This document shows, piece by piece, positions 17,968 to 27,060 of a DNA stretch of 64,000 bases. How positions within the stretch are numbered: the first letter of the stretch is position 1; each line of letters starts with the position of its first letter. Under the pieces are notes generated by a model that had not been told where the DNA came from, made no database searches, and saw nothing but the letters and a program-made list of their open reading frames with translations. The DNA is from Thermococcus sp. AM4. GTDB lineage: Archaea > Methanobacteriota_B > Thermococci > Thermococcales > Thermococcaceae. The DNA is taken from positions 868,001 through 932,000 of the forward strand of contig NC_016051.1 of NCBI RefSeq assembly GCF_000151205.2, written 5' to 3'. The translations under genes and the position numbers were made by a program.

Positions 17968-19410
17968 TCATCCTCCGTGTCCGTTGCCTCCCCCTGTTTC
18001 CATTGCAGTACCGACGATTGCCTCGTACTCGTCCTCACTGAGGAGCTGGGGTTCGTACGTAACCCCGTAGTTGGCGAGGGTCTTCACGAAGGCCCTGAGG
18101 TGGTTCCTGCTTCCCTTCATTAGGTTCTCATAGACGGCTATTATGTCAAGCTTGTCCGTCTGGTCGATCCTTTCCTGGAGATCGATTATGTCGGTTTCCT
18201 CGATAAGCGCCCCTACCTTGAGGGCATCGATTTCACTCTTGCTTCCCTGCTCGATGAGCTGGTTGTACAGCGCCTGAAGGTCCGGGTTTGTGAACACTCC
18301 AACCGGTTCGTTGGCCGTGGGATCCGTGAGGTTGTACTTCTCGAGGAGCGAGCGAACCGCGTTAACGTGGGTGCTCTCACTCTGGGCGATGTTGTTGAAG
18401 ATCTGCAGGCCCCACTTCTCGTAGAGGGTAACGTAGACATCATGAGCTAGCTTCTCCTCCTCAACCATGTAGAGGAGCCCATCGATCTCCTTCTGGGTCA
18501 GCTGACCACCTGCGGTGGAGTTTATGAACTCCTGAAGCTCGGTGGTGTTAACCGTGCCGTTTTCGTCCGTCACCACGGGGATAGTGTCACTGGCTGGAGG
18601 CTGCGCCTTTGTGGTCCCCGTCTCCATGGGGCTGTTGAGTATGGAGTAAAACTCATCCTCACTGAGCACCTGTGGGGTGTAGGTAACTCCCCTGCTCTCA
18701 AGCTGGCCGACGAACGCCCTCAGGTGGTTCCTCGAGCCCGCCATGAGGTTCTCGTAAACGGTTATGATGTCCACCTTGTTCGTCTGGTCGATTCTCTCCT
18801 GGAGATCCTTTATGTCGGTCTCCTCTATCAGGGCTCCAACCTTCAGCGCGTCGATTTCGCTCTTCATGCCCATCTCAATCAGCTGGTCGTAGAGCTTCTG
18901 TATGTCGGGGTTCTGGAACTCGCCTATTCCCTCGTCCTTGGTTGGGTCGGTGAGACCGTACTTATCAAGGAGCAGCCTCACGGCGTTAATGTGTGTGCTC
19001 TCGCTATCGGCGATGTTCTTGAAGATCTGGAGTCCCCATTTCTCGTAGAGCTTGGTGTAGACATCGTGCGCCAGCTTCTCCTCCTCGACCATGTACAGCA
19101 GACCGTCCTTCTCTTCCTGGGTTAGCTCACCAGCGGGTATGGACTCCACGTACTCCCTGAGTTCATCTATGCCGACGGTACCGTTCTCGTTAACGGCTAT
19201 CGGTATCTGTCCCTGTTCTCCCTGAGGGCCTCCGGAACCGGCGCCCTGGCCATTACCTCCCTGGGGGCCCGGCGTGTGTGTTGAGCTCGGCGTGGTAGCT
19301 GGAGTGCTCGAAGTTCCGCTCTGGCTTGTCGTTCCGGTGTTTATACAGCCCGCTCCAAAGACGCTCAGGAGCAACACTCCAATCAGGAGCAGACCAAACA
19401 ACTTCCTCAT
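17968..19410 (-). CDS. Lipoprotein with two tandem DUF2202 (ferritin-like) domains
   Basis: 480 residues. A signal sequence and lipobox (SVFGAGC) lead to a Ser/Thr/Gly/Gln-rich linker, then two nearly identical ~150-residue repeats. Each repeat contains EEKLAHDVY, ESTH-NAVR, EETDI-DLQERIDQT and GSRNHLRAF, in that order. The conserved E, ExxH and E positions are those expected of a diiron four-helix bundle, fitting the ferritin-like DUF2202 family. The mature protein would sit on the outer face of the membrane. The function of DUF2202 is not established. The promoter lies in 19411-19475. Confidence 0.85.
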   Translation of the reverse strand: MRKLFGLLLIGVLLLSVFGAGCINTGTTSQSGTSSTPATTPSSTHTPGPQGGNGQGAGSGGPQGEQGQIPIAVNENGTVGIDELREYVESIPAGELTQEEKDGLLYMVEEEKLAHDVYTKLYEKWGLQIFKNIADSESTHINAVRLLLDKYGLTDPTKDEGIGEFQNPDIQKLYDQLIEMGMKSEIDALKVGALIEETDIKDLQERIDQTNKVDIITVYENLMAGSRNHLRAFVGQLESRGVTYTPQVLSEDEFYSILNSPMETGTTKAQPPASDTIPVVTDENGTVNTTELQEFINSTAGGQLTQKEIDGLLYMVEEEKLAHDVYVTLYEKWGLQIFNNIAQSESTHVNAVRSLLEKYNLTDPTANEPVGVFTNPDLQALYNQLIEQGSKSEIDALKVGALIEETDIIDLQERIDQTDKLDIIAVYENLMKGSRNHLRAFVKTLANYGVTYEPQLLSEDEYEAIVGTAMETGGGNGHGG

Positions 19411-19592: not shown

Positions 19593-20045
19593 ATGGTCTG
19601 GCACATCGATGAGAAGGTTGCTTTTTCCAGAATCCCCTGGAAGGAAGATTTAGCCACGCTAAAGGGGCATTTCGAATGCATAGTTATCCTAGCTCCAGAG
19701 TTTGAGCTGCCCTACGGGATTAAAGACTTACTCGAGATGGGATTCAGAGTACTCCACGTTCCAATACCCGACCTCGAAGCCCCGTCCCTAGACGAGCTCA
19801 GGGCTATCGTGAACTGGATCCAGAACGAAGTTGGAACCGGGAGGAGAGTTTTGATAGCCTGCTCAAGCGGATGTGGAAGGAGCGGAACGGTGGCTGTTGC
19901 ATGGCTCATGTACTCGGGCGGCCTCTCACTCCGGGAAGCGCTGGTAACGGTTAGGAGGATCCGGCACTGTGCCGTCGAGACCGAGGGACAGATGACGGCC
20001 CTTCAAAAATTTGAGCACTACTTGAAAAACGTCGAAAAATCATGA
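19593..20045 (+). CDS. Dual-specificity-type protein phosphatase (Tk-PTP homolog)
   Basis: 150 residues from the ATG at 19593. The CX5R P-loop is C90-SSGCG-R96-SG, and D60 in VPIPDLE is placed as general acid. The residue before the catalytic cysteine is Ala (LIAC) rather than the usual His. A second Cys (C94) lies inside the loop. The spacing of D60, C90 and R96 matches the Asp/Cys/Arg of the characterised Thermococcus kodakarensis phosphatase Tk-PTP. Probable targets are phospho-Tyr/Ser proteins. It is directly upstream of the his operon but has a separate promoter. Confidence 0.85.
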   Translation: MVWHIDEKVAFSRIPWKEDLATLKGHFECIVILAPEFELPYGIKDLLEMGFRVLHVPIPDLEAPSLDELRAIVNWIQNEVGTGRRVLIACSSGCGRSGTVAVAWLMYSGGLSLREALVTVRRIRHCAVETEGQMTALQKFEHYLKNVEKS

Positions 20046-20087
20046 AAATATTCTCGAAAATTTGTCCCGATGACAGAAAATTATCAG

Positions 20088-20102
20088 ATAACCTTATTAA
20101 GC
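20088..20102 (+). promoter_or_regulatory. TATA promoter of the his operon
   Basis: ataaccttattaagc is the best TATA candidate. Transcription would begin near 20122, leaving a leader of about 108 nt before hisZ, long for an archaeal mRNA. Confidence 0.5.
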
Positions 20103-20133
20103 ACACGGAGGATCGGGGGAAGGTGTTTCCCTC

Positions 20134-20205
20134 ATGATCCCGGCCTCCCCCACCCCCTCTCCATCCCTTCTTCCGCTCCGGGATAGCCTTCATCACCCCT
20201 TCTGA
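20134..20205 (+). CDS. Candidate 23-codon leader ORF of the his operon
   Basis: ATG at 20134 is preceded by GGGGAAGGTG, a good ribosome-binding site, and the frame closes with TGA at 20203-20205. The peptide is Pro/Ser/Leu-rich and has two adjacent His codons near its end (LHHPF). Codons 4-6 include CCTCCC (20144-20149), the exact complement of the GGGAGG at 20216-20221 before hisZ. A 7-bp inverted repeat, ATCCCGG/CCGGGAT (20137-20143 and 20178-20184), also lies inside. Whether it is translated is unknown. Confidence 0.4.
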   Translation: MIPASPTPSPSLLPLRDSLHHPF

Positions 20206-20229
20206 TGAAACTCAAGGGAGGTGTTATTT

Positions 20230-21111
20230 GTGGGAAAACTCCTTTTAGCTGACTCTATCCAGCTGTCCAAAGTTGGAAAGGCTTTAAGACGAACCTTCGA
20301 GCTCTGGGGCTACGGCGAGGTCGTCCTGCCCACGATAGAGCCCTACGGGGAAACCCTGAGGGGCGGAACGAAGTTCGCCTACAACAACCAATTTTACCTG
20401 ATAAAGCCCGACGTGACGAGCAGACTGCTAAGAAACTACGACATCGCCTTCGGCAAGCTCTATTACATCGGCGAAGTCCTCGACGGCGGAGTTGAGGGAA
20501 GGTGGCAGGCGGGAGTTGAGTTCATCGGCGGTGAGCCGGCCTTCATGACGGCCGAGGTTCTGAGCGTCCTCATAACTGCATTGGAAAGCCTCGGCATTGA
20601 GGAGTTCTACATCGACCTCGGGAGCCTTGAGGTCTGGAGAAGGGCAACGGAGGGAATCGAGGATTTCCGGGAAACAATCTGTCGGGCCCTCGAAAGGAGG
20701 AACTTCGGGCTCATAGAGAAGCTCCCGCTCGATGAGGAGAAAAAGGAAGAGCTGTGGCGCCTCTTCAACTTCCGCGGGAGGGAAACCGACTACGGCAAGC
20801 TCGCCAGAATTCTCGAGCTGGTTGACGACGAGAGGGTTTTCGTGGATTTGGGCACGGTCAGACCGCTTCCCTACTACCGCGACGTAATCTTCGAGGTCTA
20901 TTCGCCAAAGCTTGGAAAGCCGATAGGCGGTGGAGGGGAGTACTCCTTCAGGGGCAGACCGGCGGTCGGCTTCGCCCTCGACCTCAGGGCCCTCATCGGG
21001 CTGGCGAAGGTAAGGGAAAGGGGGAGCAGGAGGTTCCTCAGGGGCATAAGCTCGTTCAGAGAAGCGAGGAAGCTCGTCTCGATGGGCGTTCCGGTGGAGG
21101 TGGAAAGATGA
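20230..21111 (+). CDS. hisZ: HisZ, ATP phosphoribosyltransferase regulatory subunit
   Basis: 293 residues resembling the catalytic core of histidyl-tRNA synthetase ([45 protein letters not shown]) but lacking the anticodon-binding domain. This is the HisZ signature. HisZ activates the short-form HisG and mediates histidine feedback; the short hisG follows with a 4-bp overlap. The GTG at 20230 is chosen because GGGAGGTG (20216-20223) lies 6 bases upstream; the GTG at 20221 is within that site. Confidence 0.87.
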
Positions 21112-21725
21112 GGTTCGTCCTGCCGAAGGGAAGGCTTCTCAGGGGCTCGCTGGAAATCCTGAGGAAGGCCGGCTATAACATCGACAAACCGGGCGAGAGG
21201 AAGCTAATCGAGAGGTTCAATGGCAACGAGGTTCTTCTCGCGAGGGCCTTCGACGTTCCCGTTTACGTGGAGCACGGGGTTGACGTCGGCATAGCGGGAA
21301 GCGACGCCCTTGAGGAGCGCGGAAGTGACGTTTTCGTCCCTCTGGAGCTTCCCTTCGGAAAGTGCAGGCTCAGTTTAGCGATGCCGGCTGAGAGCGTCGT
21401 CCCCCCGGAGGACATGGACGGCTACCGGATAGCGACCAAATACGAGCGGATAGCGAGGAGCTACTTCTCAAAGCTGGGCGTTGAGGTCGAAATCATAAAG
21501 CTCAGCGGGAGCGTCGAGCTGGCCCCCAAAGTCGGCGTGGCGGACGCGATAGTGGACATAGTCGAGACCGGCGAAACCCTTCGAGCGAACGGCCTCGTCG
21601 AGGTCGAGAAAATCATGGACGTTTCGGCCCAACTGCTCGTCAACAGGATTTCCCAGAAGACGAAGTTCGATGAAATCAACGCCCTGATTCTCGCGATAAA
21701 GGAGGTGGTTGGAGATGGAACTTGA
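21108..21725 (+). CDS. hisG: ATP phosphoribosyltransferase catalytic subunit, short form
   Basis: 205 residues. First step of histidine synthesis: ATP + PRPP to phosphoribosyl-ATP. [11 protein letters not shown] at the N-terminus, the substrate loop [10 protein letters not shown] and the PRPP-binding [19 protein letters not shown] are typical. The length shows it is the short form without the C-terminal regulatory domain, so it needs HisZ, encoded just upstream. Confidence 0.95.
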
Positions 21726-22842
21726 GGAGTACGTTGCGGGCATTTTGAGGGACATACGCGAAAGGGGAATCGAAGCGGTCAGGGAGTACTCTCGGAAGTT
21801 CGACAGCTACGACGGTCCATTCCGCGTGACGGATGAGGAGTTCGAGGAGGCGGAAAAGCTCGTTCCCGAGAAGGACAGGGAGATAATCGAGCGGACGATA
21901 GGGCGACTGTGGGACTACCACGAAAGGCAGAAGCCGGGAGACGAGCTTTTCGTCAAGAACGGCTCGCTCTACGGCCTTATCTACCGCCCGATACGGAGGA
22001 TAGGAATCTACGTTCCCGGCGGGAAACCGCTCCCCTCGACCCTCATGATGGTCGCCGTTCCCGCGAGGATAGCGGGCGTCAAGGAGATAGCGGTCACGAT
22101 TCCGCCGAAGGACGGCAGGGTGAACCCCTACGTGCTCTACGTGGCAAAACTGCTCGGCATCGACGAGGTTTACAAGCTCGGTGGGGTTCAGGCGATAGGG
22201 GCGATGGCGTACGGCGTTGGAATGAAGAAGGTGGACAAGATATTCGGGCCCGGAAACAGGTTCGTCAACGAGGCCAAGAGGCAGGTGTTCGGCGTCGTGG
22301 GAATAGACAGCCTCGCCGGGCCGTCGGAGATAGCGGTCATAGCCGATGAAACGGCCGAGAAGGACTACGTCCTGGTGGACCTCCTCAGCCAGCTGGAGCA
22401 CGGGAAGGACAGCAAAGCATGGCTTCTGACGACCTCGAAGGAGCTTGCCAACTTCTGCTCCCGCGACGGGATTGAGGTGATACTCTGCGAAAGCCTCGCG
22501 GAGTGCGCCGAAAAGACGAACGAGATAGCGCCGGAGCACCTTGAGATAATAACCGAAGACCCGCTCAGCCTGGTTGACCTCATCGAGAACGCCGGGGCGA
22601 TTTACCTCGGACCCTACACGCCCGTTCCCTCAGCTGATTACTTCCTCGGCGTCAACCACGTCCTTCCGACCGGAGGAACGGCAAAGTTCAGCGGGGTTCT
22701 AACGGTGAGGGACTTCATGAAGCCGATAACCCTCGCCCGGGTGAGCAGGGAGGAGTTTCTGAGCGAAAGGGAGCTTGGAATAAGATTGGCGGAGATAGAG
22801 GGCATGGAACTTCACAGGAGGAGCATGGAGGTGAGGAGATGA
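21715..22842 (+). CDS. hisD: Histidinol dehydrogenase
   Basis: 375 residues. Oxidises histidinol to histidine with NAD+ and zinc. Visible family motifs: [82 protein letters not shown]. The ATG at 21715 has GGAGGTGG 7 bases upstream and overlaps hisG by 11 bp. Confidence 0.96.
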
Positions 22843-23375
22843 GAAGAACAACGAGGGAGACCGACGTAACTGTGGAGCTTAACTCGACCGGGGAAATAGA
22901 GACCGGCGACAGGGTCCTCGAGCACATGCTCACAGCTTTGTTCCACTACATGGGCAGGAGCGCGAGGGTTAAGGCCGAATACGACCTCAGGCACCACCTC
23001 TGGGAAGACGTGGGCATAACCCTCGGGGAGGAGCTACGCTCGAAGCTCCCAGAAAGGTTCAGGCGCTTCGGGAGCGCGATTATGCCGATGGACGATGCCT
23101 TAGTCCTCGTTGCAGTGGACATCTCTGGAAGGCCCTACGTGAGCGCTGAACTGAGCTTTGAGGAGGGGGAGGAGGGGTTCGAGAAGGCCCTGGCCAGGGA
23201 GTTCCTCTGGGGGCTGGCGCGCTCGTTAAGGGCGACAATCCACGTGAAGACGCTGAGCGGAGTAAACGCGCACCACGTCATCGAGGCGACTTTCAAGGGT
23301 CTCGGCGTCGCGCTGGGCCAGGCCATTCGCGAGGGCGAGAGGGTTGAGAGCACGAAGGGACTGCTGGAGGTGTGA
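22839..23375 (+). CDS. hisB: Imidazoleglycerol-phosphate dehydratase
   Basis: 178 residues. The manganese-binding repeats are visible as [13 protein letters not shown] / [11 protein letters not shown] and ALAREFLWG / [12 protein letters not shown]. It is the stand-alone dehydratase without a fused histidinol-phosphatase domain, so another phosphatase is needed; one is encoded later in the operon. The ATG overlaps the hisD stop. Confidence 0.95.
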
Positions 23376-23377
23376 GC

Positions 23378-23968
23378 TTGATAGCGGTGGTCGATTTGGG
23401 AATAGGCAACCTCGCCAACGTGAGGAAAGCCCTCAAAGGAGTCGTCACGAGCGACCCCTACGAGATTGAGAAAGCTGAAAAGCTCGTCCTCCCGGGGGTC
23501 GGCAACTTTGGAGCGGTGATGGAGAGGCTCGAACCGCTGAGGGGCGTTATACTCGACGCGATAACCGATGGAAAGCCCTTCCTCGGGATATGCCTTGGAT
23601 TACAGCTCCTCTTCGAGGGGAGCGAGGAGAGTCCCGGAAGGTCCGGCCTCGGTGTCTTCAGGGGAAACGTCGTCAGGTTTCAGGGGGTTAGAACGCCCCA
23701 CATCGGCTGGAACCAGCTGTGGAAGCGGAAGGACTGCCCGCTCTTCAAGGGGATTCGCGATGGCGCGTACTTCTACTTCGTCCACTCCTACTACGCCGAG
23801 CCAAGTGAAGAGGAAATAATCGCGGGGGTTACCGACTACGAGTCGAGGGGAAGGAGAGTGGTCTTCACGTCGGCCGTTTGCAGGGGCAACGTTTACGCCG
23901 TCCAGTTTCACCCTGAGAAGAGCTGGCGGAACGGTTTGACCGTCATGAGAAACTTCAGGAGGCTTTAG
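23378..23968 (+). CDS. hisH: Imidazole glycerol phosphate synthase, glutaminase subunit
   Basis: 196 residues. A class I glutamine amidotransferase; the nucleophile Cys is in LGICLGLQLLFEGSEE and the His/Glu in QFHPEKSW. It supplies ammonia to HisF. The TTG at 23378 gives the usual MIAVVDLGIGN start and lies 4-5 bases after CTGGAGGTG; a GTG at 23372 overlapping the hisB stop would add two residues. Confidence 0.94.
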   Translation: MIAVVDLGIGNLANVRKALKGVVTSDPYEIEKAEKLVLPGVGNFGAVMERLEPLRGVILDAITDGKPFLGICLGLQLLFEGSEESPGRSGLGVFRGNVVRFQGVRTPHIGWNQLWKRKDCPLFKGIRDGAYFYFVHSYYAEPSEEEIIAGVTDYESRGRRVVFTSAVCRGNVYAVQFHPEKSWRNGLTVMRNFRRL

Positions 23969-23969
23969 G

Positions 23970-24668
23970 ATGGACGTCTATCCGGCAATCGACCTCATGA
24001 ACGGAAGGGCCGTCAGGCTCTACAAGGGGAAGCGAGAGGAAGTCAAGGTCTACGGCGACCCCGTCGAGATAGCGGGGCGGTTTAGCGAGTTCGTTGATAA
24101 AATCCACGTCGTGGATTTGGACGGGGCCTTTGAGGGCTTCCCTAAGAACCTCGGTGTGGTTGAGAGGATAATCCGCGAGACCGGGCTGAGGGTCCAGCTC
24201 GGTGGCGGTCTGAGGAGCTACGAGGCCGTCGAGAGGGCCTACGAAATCGGCGTCGAGAACGCGATAATAGGCACGAAAGCCTTTGATTTGGAGTTCCTGG
24301 CCAGAATAACCAACGATTTCGAGGGAATAATCGTCAGCCTCGACTCAAAGGGTGGGAGAATAGCGGTGAAGGGCTGGCTTGAGAGCGGGATTCCGGTTAG
24401 AGAGGCCTACGAGACGCTGAGGGGCTACGTTGACAGGTTCATCTACACCTCCGTCGAGAGGGACGGGACCTTAACCGGAATCGAGGAAATCAAGCGCTTT
24501 TGGAATAACGAGGAGTTCATCTACGCGGGGGGAGTTTCAGGTATTGAAGACCTGCTGAAGCTTGAGGAAATAGGTTTTTCCGGGGTCATCGTCGGGAAGG
24601 CGCTCTACGAGGGCAAGGTCAGCCTCGAAGAACTGCTGGAGGTGGCGGAATGCTCGCGAAGAGGATAA
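23970..24668 (+). CDS. hisA: ProFAR isomerase HisA
   Basis: 232 residues of half-barrel-derived TIM barrel. [28 protein letters not shown], and [12 protein letters not shown] mark the phosphate sites and the two catalytic aspartates (D8-equivalent and the later ERDGT Asp). It isomerises ProFAR to PRFAR. It overlaps hisF by 19 bp. Confidence 0.95.
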
Positions 24669-25408
24669 TCGCGGCGCTGGACATAAAAGAGGGCAGGGTC
24701 GTGAAGGGGATAAAGTTCCGGAACATACGCGATGCTGGCGACCCTGTGGAACTCGCAAAGCGCTACGAGAGCGAGGGGATAGACGAAATTGTCTTCCTCG
24801 ACATCACAGCATCGTACGAGAAGAGGGGAATTCTCCTCGACCTCGTTGAGAGAATCGCGGGGGAGATATACGTCCCCTTCACCGTCGGAGGGGGCATAAG
24901 GACGGTCGAGGAAGCGAGGGAGATAGTCAAGCGCGGGGCCGATAAGGTCTTCGTGAACACCTCTGCGGTCGATAGGCCCGAACTCGTGGGGGAGATGGCC
25001 GAGCTGATAGGAACGGCAAACACCGTGGTTGCCATAGATGCGAAGTGGAACGGCTCCTTCTGGGAGGTTTACACCCACGGCGGAAGGAAGGCGAGGGGGA
25101 TTAATGCTATCGAGTGGGCGAAGACCGTTGAGAGACTTGGAGCGGGAGAAATCCTCCTCACGAGCATGGACACTGACGGGACTAAGGAGGGCTTTGACAT
25201 AGCGCTCACGAAGGCCGTTGCGGAGGCTGTGGATATTCCTGTGATAGCCTCCGGCGGAGCGGGGAAGCCCGAGCACTTCTACGAGGCCTTCAAAGCCGGG
25301 GCCGAGGCGGCTTTAGCCGCTTCAATCTTCCACTACGGGGAATACACCGTCGGCGAGCTGAAGGAGTATCTGGCCGAGAGAGGAATTCCGGTCAGGCTGG
25401 ACTACTGA
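24650..25408 (+). CDS. hisF: Imidazole glycerol phosphate synthase, cyclase subunit
   Basis: 252 residues, a TIM barrel paralogous to His[49 protein letters not shown] and [12 protein letters not shown] give the catalytic Asp pair and phosphate loops. With HisH it makes IGP and AICAR. Confidence 0.96.
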
Positions 25409-25417
25409 GGTGGTAGC

Positions 25418-26047
25418 ATGGGCGCTGATGAGCTGATTGAAAAAGTTGACTGGGAGAAGAACGGCGGAATCGTCCCCGTCATAGTTCAAGACACAAAGGG
25501 AGAGGTTCTAACGCTGGCCTACATGGACAGGGAAGCGCTGAGGAGGACCCTTGAAACGGGCTACGCCCACTACCACTCCCGCTCGCAGGGCAGGGTGAGA
25601 ATGAAAGGTGAAGTCAGCGGAAACACCCAGAGGGTTAAGGAAATCCGGGTAGACTGCGACAGCGACGCGCTCCTCCTCATAGTCGAGCAGAAGGGCGTTG
25701 CCTGCCACACCGGGAACTACTCCTGCTTCTACCGGAAGCTGGGCGAGCCTGAGCGCGTTCTGCCGATGGACTACTCGCTCACAATCATTAGGGAGCTTGA
25801 GGAGCTGATACGAAAGAGGAAGGAAGAGCCGGTCGAAGGTTCTTACACCTCGGAGCTGTTCAAAGCCGGAAGGGAGAGGATTTACAAGAAGTTCGGCGAG
25901 GAAGCGGTGGAAGTTCTCGTTGCCGAGACGCGGGAGGGTCTCATCTACGAAACCGCCGACATGCTCTACCACCTGCTCGTTCTCCTCGCTTACAACGGCG
26001 TTTCCCTCGGGGAGGTTATGGCCGAGCTGAGGAGGCGGAGGAAGTGA
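25418..26047 (+). CDS. hisI: Bifunctional phosphoribosyl-AMP cyclohydrolase / phosphoribosyl-ATP pyrophosphatase
   Basis: 209 residues. Residues 1-115 are the HisI cyclohydrolase with [29 protein letters not shown] and [13 protein letters not shown] (zinc and magnesium ligands). Residues ~125-209 are the HisE pyrophosphatase with [15 protein letters not shown] and [13 protein letters not shown]. It does steps 2 and 3 of the pathway; the fused HisIE form explains the absence of a separate hisE. Confidence 0.95.
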
Positions 26048-27060
26048 TAAGCGAGCTGGTCAAGTCCTTTCAGCCGTATCGCGTCGTGGAGGGGAACTAC
26101 CGGATAAGGCTCGACAAGAACGAAAGCCCCTACGACCTGCCGGACTGGGTGAAGGAGGAAATCTTCGAGGAGCTGAGGGAGCTTGACTTCAACCGCTATC
26201 CTCACATAACCTCCATGCCGGCGCGGGAAGCGATAGCCGAGTTCTACGGTCTCTCGCCGGACAACGTGGCCGTCGGAAACGGGAGCGACGAGCTGTTGAG
26301 CTACCTCGTGAGGCTCTTTGAGGGAAACCATATAATCACGACTCCACCGACCTTCGGAATGTACTCCTTCTACGCGAGGCTGAACGGCGTTCCGGTCGTT
26401 GAAGTGCCCCTTCGGGAGGACTTCACGATTGACGGGGAGGCGATAGCCAAAAAAGCAGAAAACGCGAGGGCAATCTTCATAGCATCGCCCAACAACCCCA
26501 CAGGAAACCTCCAGCCGGAGGAGGAAATCGTCAGAGTCCTCGAAACCGGAAGGCCGGTAATCCTTGACGAGGCCTACGCGGAGTTCGCGGGAAAGAGCCT
26601 CTGGAAGCTCATCGAGGATTACAAGAACCTCGTAGTGCTGAGGACGTTCTCCAAGGCCTTCGGAATGGCCGGAATCAGGGCCGGCTACATGCTGGCGGGC
26701 GAAGAGGTTGTAGATGCCCTCTACCGGATAAAGTCCCCCTTCAGCGTCGGAATCATGACGATGACGGCCGTGAGGGTGGCGCTTAGACATGCGGACCTGA
26801 TGGAGAGGCGCGTTAGGAAAATTGTTGAGGAGCGCGAGAGGATGAGGAGAAAGCTCGGGGAGCTGGCCTATCCAAGCGACGCCAACTTCCTCCTCGTTAA
26901 GCTCGACGCCTACGAGGAGCTTTTGAAACGGGGCATAGTGGTGAGGAAGCTCTCGGGAAGGCTCGAGGGGCACATACGAGTAACCGTCGGCAGAAGATGG
27001 GAGAACGACGCCTTCCTGAAGGCCGTGAGGGAGGTAGCCAGCTATGTGGGTGGTCTTTGA
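26044..27060 (+). CDS. hisC: Histidinol-phosphate aminotransferase
   Basis: 338 residues, PLP aminotransferase. Signature elements: [37 protein letters not shown], and the PLP-lysine context [16 protein letters not shown]. It begins with GTG overlapping the hisI stop and ends 17 bp inside the next gene. Confidence 0.95.

Follow-up and report, generated by a model that had tools for sequence, protein, structure and literature searches.

The histidine (his) operon of Thermococcus sp. AM4 raises the question of whether an archaeon can sense its histidine supply through a leader peptide. Leader-peptide control of amino-acid operons is a textbook bacterial mechanism. The operon lies within the stretch of DNA analyzed here (64,000 nucleotides of contig NC_016051.1, hereafter the window, whose numbering is used throughout) and is preceded by a short open reading frame (ORF) with adjacent His codons. 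Comparison of related genomes suggests, with a probability of roughly 0.75, that this element is a histidine leader peptide gene heading an archaeal his operon. Across loci, the ATG, the frame, and the terminal His codons are kept behind a TATA-like box, and a similar form appears in a sister lineage. The sensor part of the proposal is well supported by this comparison. The output step, for which control of hisZ translation initiation is the candidate ranked first, is tentative, with the chances somewhat against it.

The operon spans positions 20230–27060 on the plus strand in the order hisZ-G-D-B-H-A-F-IE-C. Its first gene (20230–21111, start codon GTG) encodes a HisZ-like ATP phosphoribosyltransferase regulatory subunit and is followed by hisG, hisD, hisB, hisH, hisA, hisF, hisIE, and hisC (21108–27060). 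The best model for the first gene is TIGR00443; the score of 123 bits is below the curated cut-off of 271.65, and a clear hisG adjoins. The hisZ Shine-Dalgarno (SD) sequence, GGGAGGTG, is read directly at 20216–20223, and the hisZ open frame extends 5′ to a GTG at 20221 within it. On the minus strand, an ORF at 17968–19410 encodes 480 amino acids with a lipoprotein-like start and two similar internal repeats (EEEKLAHDVY... and SESTH...AVR).

The leader ORF (20134–20205, plus strand) has 23 sense codons, MIPASPTPSPSLLPLRDSLHHPF, between the ATG at 20134 and a TGA stop at 20203–20205. Direct reading gives SLHHPF as the C-terminus of the peptide. Within it, the tandem codons CAT CAC (20191–20196) are the presumed sensing codons, on direct reading and family comparison. 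A preliminary description of this DNA had pointed out the 23-codon ORF and the adjacent His codons near its end, before hisZ, and both are seen here. A TATA-like sequence, CTTATTAA (20093–20100), centered 37 nt 5′ of the leader ATG, is the presumed promoter element of the operon. Its position puts the presumed transcription start near 20120–20125 and makes the leader ~105–110 nt long, in agreement with the ~108 nt estimated earlier by TATA position. With this start, the G-rich tract GGGGGAAGGTG (20115–20125) would lie mostly 5′ of the transcript, and AAGGTG (20120–20125) would stand at the extreme 5′ end of the RNA. This sequence is thus both the presumed transcript 5′ end, as placed from the TATA-like box, and the presumed leader SD sequence, with GGTG 8 nt 5′ of the leader ATG. 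The sequence suggests that the RNA presumably begins at or within AAGGTG, about 9–14 nt before the leader ATG, which is the usual short 5′ untranslated region (UTR) of these archaea. Published data give median 5′ UTRs of 16 nt in T. kodakarensis (PMC4247193) and 12 nt in T. onnurineus (PMC5316973).

The 94 Thermococcaceae genomes surveyed divide into 47 with a HisZ match at E 2e-22 or better, 43 with weaker matches only, and 4 with none. The 43 weaker matches are of the kind expected from histidyl-tRNA synthetase. One genome with a HisG match, no HisZ match, and an incomplete assembly (G088) was left out. Upstream regions were taken at all 47 hisZ loci, counting the window’s own; these loci are related, 39 of them sitting in 12 close groups, and the counts that follow are not independent. 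As a side observation, the HisZ proteins are almost histidine-free, with 13 His codons across the aligned parts of the 47 loci.

Every one of the 47 loci has a leader ORF that ends with consecutive His codons or shortly after them. The preliminary description held that an ORF lacking conservation in relatives would speak against its reading, and the comparison gives the opposite result. A fixed rule, which requires HH within the final 8 residues of a short ORF, picks out such an ORF in all 47 hisZ upstreams (260–330 nt searched). Applied upstream of the 62 window frames of at least 250 codons on both strands, the same rule picks out one case, namely hisZ. The run comprises two consecutive His codons in 23 leaders, three in 23, and four in 1. 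It stands directly before the stop in 34 leaders, and is separated from it by one residue in 1, two in 9, three in 2, and six in 1 (L058, in which the stop is lost). The commonest form has ~32 codons and ends in LLVSYCHHH. Leaders of the window’s clade end in SLHHPF or SCHHPF, the leader of a genome that we take to be T. kodakarensis KOD1 (G024) ends in VTYCHHLF, and a divergent leader from another genus (L061 in G009) ends in IFHHI. The leader stop ends 24–80 nt before hisZ across the 47 loci.

Signals for transcription and translation accompany this ORF. The start codon is ATG in 47/47 leaders, and an SD-like match of at least 4 bases precedes 39 of them; five of the 8 starts without such a match have a G-run instead. 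Four starts (L028, L030, L031, and L053) were set by hand to the start shared with their closest relatives, and the statistics postdate that step. The distance from the TATA center to the leader start has a median of 39 nt (interquartile range 37–44, range 28–69; 47 loci), a spread bounded by the search for TATA-like boxes only 23–75 nt 5′ of the leader start. The TATA-to-hisZ distance is 110–228 nt. The locus combines tandem codons for the operon’s own amino acid, histidine, with a short ORF whose start and ribosome-binding site lie between a TATA-like box and the first structural gene.

The pattern of change within the leader also bears on its coding status. All 8 indels within the leader ORF are multiples of three, compared with 9 of 21 in the spacer, as counted pairwise within the 12 close groups (39 of the 47 loci, not independent). 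The leader body has a pN/pS of 0.81, which indicates little amino-acid constraint; such near-free drift of the peptide body is expected if the frame and the last codons outweigh the product. Of the 119 terminal His codons in the 47 leaders, 115 are CAT. In 15 genes of the window, CAC makes up 45 of 53 His codons and CAT 8. CAT would be the wobble-read codon of a single tRNA-His, and might thereby be more sensitive to histidyl-tRNA supply.

Residues just before the His run are conserved as well (V in 38, S in 30, Y in 35, and C in 26 of 47 leaders), which would suit an arrest peptide. Here the LLVSYCHHH end would act in the exit tunnel and pause the ribosome on histidine itself, and not merely on tRNA charging. 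However, the SLHHPF, SCHHPF, and IFHHI endings indicate that the motif is not essential, and synonymous variety is low at these codons, so an RNA constraint could act on the same nucleotides. An arrest peptide is unlikely.

Conservation at the end of the leader reaches individual nucleotides. The sequence TTCT (20200–20203 in the window) is invariant in 47/47 leaders, follows the last His codon at a distance of 3, 6, or 9 nt, and is always in frame. The bases before it are C in 46 leaders, T in 42, and then a free base, and the spacer positions beside TTCT carry little information in the alignment. The pattern CATCATTGACTNTTCT has 28 matches in the 94 genomes, 27 of which are at hisZ leaders, and the reversed-pattern control has 0. 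A second copy of CATCATTGACTATTCT in G005 lies away from recognised his genes and was set aside, with ~0.3 chance matches expected by estimate. From general ribosome geometry, we infer that a ribosome stalled or terminating at the His or stop codons would cover TTCT or hold it in the entry channel.

The stop codon itself was also considered. The leader stop is TGA in 46/47 leaders; it was rejected as an unusual stop, since hisZ genes also end in TGA in 43 of the 46 readable cases. The tetranucleotide TGAC occurs at 33 of 47 leader stops versus 0 of 46 readable hisZ stops; the window has TGAT (20203–20206). TGAC is a poorly terminating context in eukaryotes. TGA readthrough into Leu-Phe was likewise rejected as unsupported: of the 35 leaders whose stop precedes TTCT, only 9 have another in-frame stop immediately following TTC.

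Nucleotide-level conservation of GTGAGCTACTGC and TTCT, in which the in-frame TTC is never TTT, is also what an RNA or DNA element, either protein-binding or riboswitch-like, would display, and the His reading would then be incidental. However, the start codon, the frame, and the ORF persist over divergent bodies, the number of His codons varies from 2 to 4, and the flanks of the HH or HHH before hisG differ in the sister lineage. In addition, the identity of the codons fits the pathway, and the three Rfam matches at 19900–20400 of the window were dismissed because all fall far below the gathering score. These observations make such an element very improbable.

In the leader-peptide reading, the leader would be transcribed together with the his operon and translated. 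A shortage of histidyl-tRNA would stall the ribosome on the CAT codons at the end of the ORF, and whether or not a stalled ribosome is present would then set the expression of hisZ and the operon. How the stalled ribosome would be read out is a guess: it may cover the segment after the His codons, TGACTNTTCT or its equivalent, which would otherwise be paired with the hisZ SD region.

The preliminary description had placed this pairing elsewhere, in CCTCCC of the leader body, and suggested that leader translation could expose or hide hisZ initiation; in the version assessed here, CCTCCC would sequester the hisZ SD and leader translation would free it. The complementarity is real: CCTCCC (20144–20149) is exactly complementary to GGGAGG (20216–20221). 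The 7-bp inverted repeat reported within the leader ORF is present too, as ATCCCGG (20137–20143) and CCGGGAT (20178–20184). A second 7-bp inverted repeat, TTCATCA (20189–20195) and TGATGAA (20203–20209), surrounds the His codons and the stop; its 5′ arm overlaps the His codons, and it was absent from the preliminary description. In the predicted fold of the window, CCTCCC pairs with GGGAGG at 37 °C with a probability of ~1. When the leader body is masked, mean SD pairing drops from 0.91 to 0.85 at 37 °C and from 0.84 to 0.59 at 80 °C. However, CCTCCC is found in only 3 of 47 leaders, all from the window’s clade, and the exact repeat only in the window (1/47). The C-rich leader also offers alternative partners, and the z-score of the whole-leader fold is only −1.03.

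The direction of control poses a further difficulty. CCTCCC lies ~42 nt 5′ of the His codons, so a lone ribosome stalled there leaves it free to cover the hisZ SD, which is the wrong sense of control unless ribosomes queue behind. From its position, what would mask CCTCCC is a ribosome translating the leader body or a queue of ribosomes, and not the His-stalled ribosome. Masking of 20180–20208 leaves predicted SD pairing at 0.91 at 37 °C and takes it from 0.84 to 0.81 at 80 °C; the SD of the window stays paired with CCTCCC when the His region is masked. Sequestration by CCTCCC is improbable as the main device, and the pairing may be a local addition in the window’s clade. The cross-species comparison divides the earlier proposal: a translated-looking His leader before an archaeal his operon is supported, with ORF and His codons kept at 47/47 loci, but CCTCCC pairing as a general mechanism is not supported.

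Pairing between the hisZ SD and the segment that follows the His codons has a mixed record. One clade, with 9 loci, has a 13-bp helix between CATTGACTCTTCT, which comprises the last His codon, the stop, and the element, and GGAGGGGTTAGTG, which comprises the hisZ SD and start codon (p 0.01–0.03 each). Across 30 representatives, element windows rank above uniform expectation for SD pairing (KS p 2.6e-6). However, SD pairing may reflect base composition, since only 11/30 element windows are in the top tenth and the real elements hardly outperform shuffled ones (median P 0.28; 0.1 or below in 10/30 representatives). In a family-wide shuffle test with 22 representatives, the longest helix between this zone and the SD is no better than shuffled (Fisher p 0.56; 2/22 below 0.05). 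SD-element pairing was rejected as a family-wide feature on these shuffle tests. Among the consensus folds of eight groups, those of groups C and F lack element-SD pairing. The sister lineage has a small CGYC/GGCG hairpin that overlaps the hisG SD; the 5′ arm lies a few nt beyond the leader stop. At 70 °C, which is below the growth temperatures of these organisms, folding is predicted to be weak (0 to −8.1 kcal/mol).

Transcriptional attenuation offers another output. In this case, leader translation would govern premature termination, via FttA, the archaeal polarity factor, on untranslated RNA or polymerase pausing near TTCT, and stalled ribosomes or ribosome-free RNA would alter termination before hisZ. 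Early termination would benefit a long operon, and TTCT, an invariant and pyrimidine-rich element, has its position set by the leader end. One source attributes archaeal polarity, cited there in T. kodakarensis, to the likely action of FttA (PMC12548453). However, no terminator hairpin with a U-run before hisZ, nor any other terminator-like site, was found at 19900–20400 of the window, and T-runs of at least 5 between the leader stop and hisZ occur at only 13 of 47 loci. Attenuation of this kind is possible but doubtful. A sigma-70-type promoter match was disregarded as irrelevant for an archaeon. The outputs are ranked with translation-level control first, FttA-type termination second, and a nascent-peptide effect third; they are not mutually exclusive.

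The proposed leader resembles several bacterial systems in part. As in the proteobacterial his attenuator (His leader, RF00514), a short ORF with tandem His codons heads the his operon, and the ribosome would presumably stall when histidyl-tRNA is low. In contrast, the Thermococcus leader is archaeal, its ORF ends in, or shortly after, the His codons, and an invariant TTCT follows right after these codons; RF00514 has no match at 19900–20400 of the window up to E 1. T-box(His) elements and HisR constitute an RNA-tRNA and a repressor mechanism, respectively, without a leader ORF, and no T-box match was found at 19900–20400 of the window. Translational attenuation, of which ermC is the type, is alike in that control would act at hisZ initiation and SD helices are predicted in some clades. 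It differs in that the helix here is found in the 9-locus clade and the family-wide shuffle test is negative.

One study describes three of these bacterial counterparts (PMC9413887). Translational attenuators are described there as sequestering the ribosome-binding site of the first gene, and T-box(His) and HisR as placing the same pathway under the control of histidine supply in Gram-positive bacteria (PMC9413887). The third counterpart is a set of candidate his attenuators in Firmicutes, likewise leader peptides before his operons found by comparison, with three to five consecutive His codons (PMC9413887). Unlike the Thermococcus leader, these belong to another domain of life and have predicted terminator and antiterminator hairpins (PMC9413887).

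HisG was searched for in four other families of the class and in other archaea. The latter search gave a HisG match in 193 genomes, and upstream sequence was retrieved for part of these. The 82 retrieved and placed loci from outside the class form the control set; the hisG counts exclude L141 (47 nt upstream only) and L228 (no match). In a sister lineage of the same class (genus g8 of family f3), a His-ending ORF precedes hisG in 6/6 evaluable loci. This leader encodes MGIINENVKFDSSIILSCTAHHH followed directly by the stop, and variants thereof, two of which end in HHQ and HHN. Its stop codon starts 29–31 nt 5′ of hisG, and hisZ is not found directly before the leader-bearing hisG. The fixed rule (HH within the final 8 residues of a short ORF) gives no case among the 82 control hisG upstreams from other archaea; a more permissive rule, which accepts H.H or HH within the final 12 residues, gives 3.

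Two further observations concern the sister lineage. Its genomes (G103:C7, G104:C31, G098:C19, G097:C16, and others) hold a second HisG that is ~35% identical to the leader-bearing one; at the one such locus inspected (L138, G097), no His-ending leader was seen. Separately, a scan of four loci (L133, L134, L135, and L136) showed a divergent tRNA-Gly (TCC) gene 5′ of the His leader in each.

For the class Thermococci as a whole, we give an even chance to an old archaeal form of histidyl-tRNA sensing by a stalled leader ribosome; the ribosome, stalled or terminating, would act via TTCT and the hisZ or hisG start region, without terminator hairpins of the bacterial type. If true, the leader would be a leader-peptide regulator native to archaea. 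Its presence at 47/47 hisZ loci, together with the echo in the sister lineage, makes archaeal attenuation testable in the genetically tractable T. kodakarensis. The leader would also bear on archaeal transcription-translation coupling and on control in hot cells, where weak hairpins should melt.

Among the matches listed in a search of open-access titles and abstract starts, none names an archaeal histidine leader peptide; subscription papers fall mostly outside this scope, and an earlier description is possible. Leader control has reportedly been proposed in older work for trp operons of haloarchaea or methanogens. Within the Thermococcaceae, scans for Trp-codon leaders at 15 trpC loci, for Thr leaders at 30 homoserine dehydrogenase loci (from 92 genomes with a match), and for branched-chain leaders at 7 ilvC loci found none. 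In the homoserine dehydrogenase and ilvC scans, each gene was assumed to begin at the first possible start codon of its frame, which makes these a rough control. By eye, a TGTCCAA-like motif just 5′ of an A/T-rich TATA-like box recurs before trpC in most of the 15 loci (L093–L107), and is possibly a regulator site.
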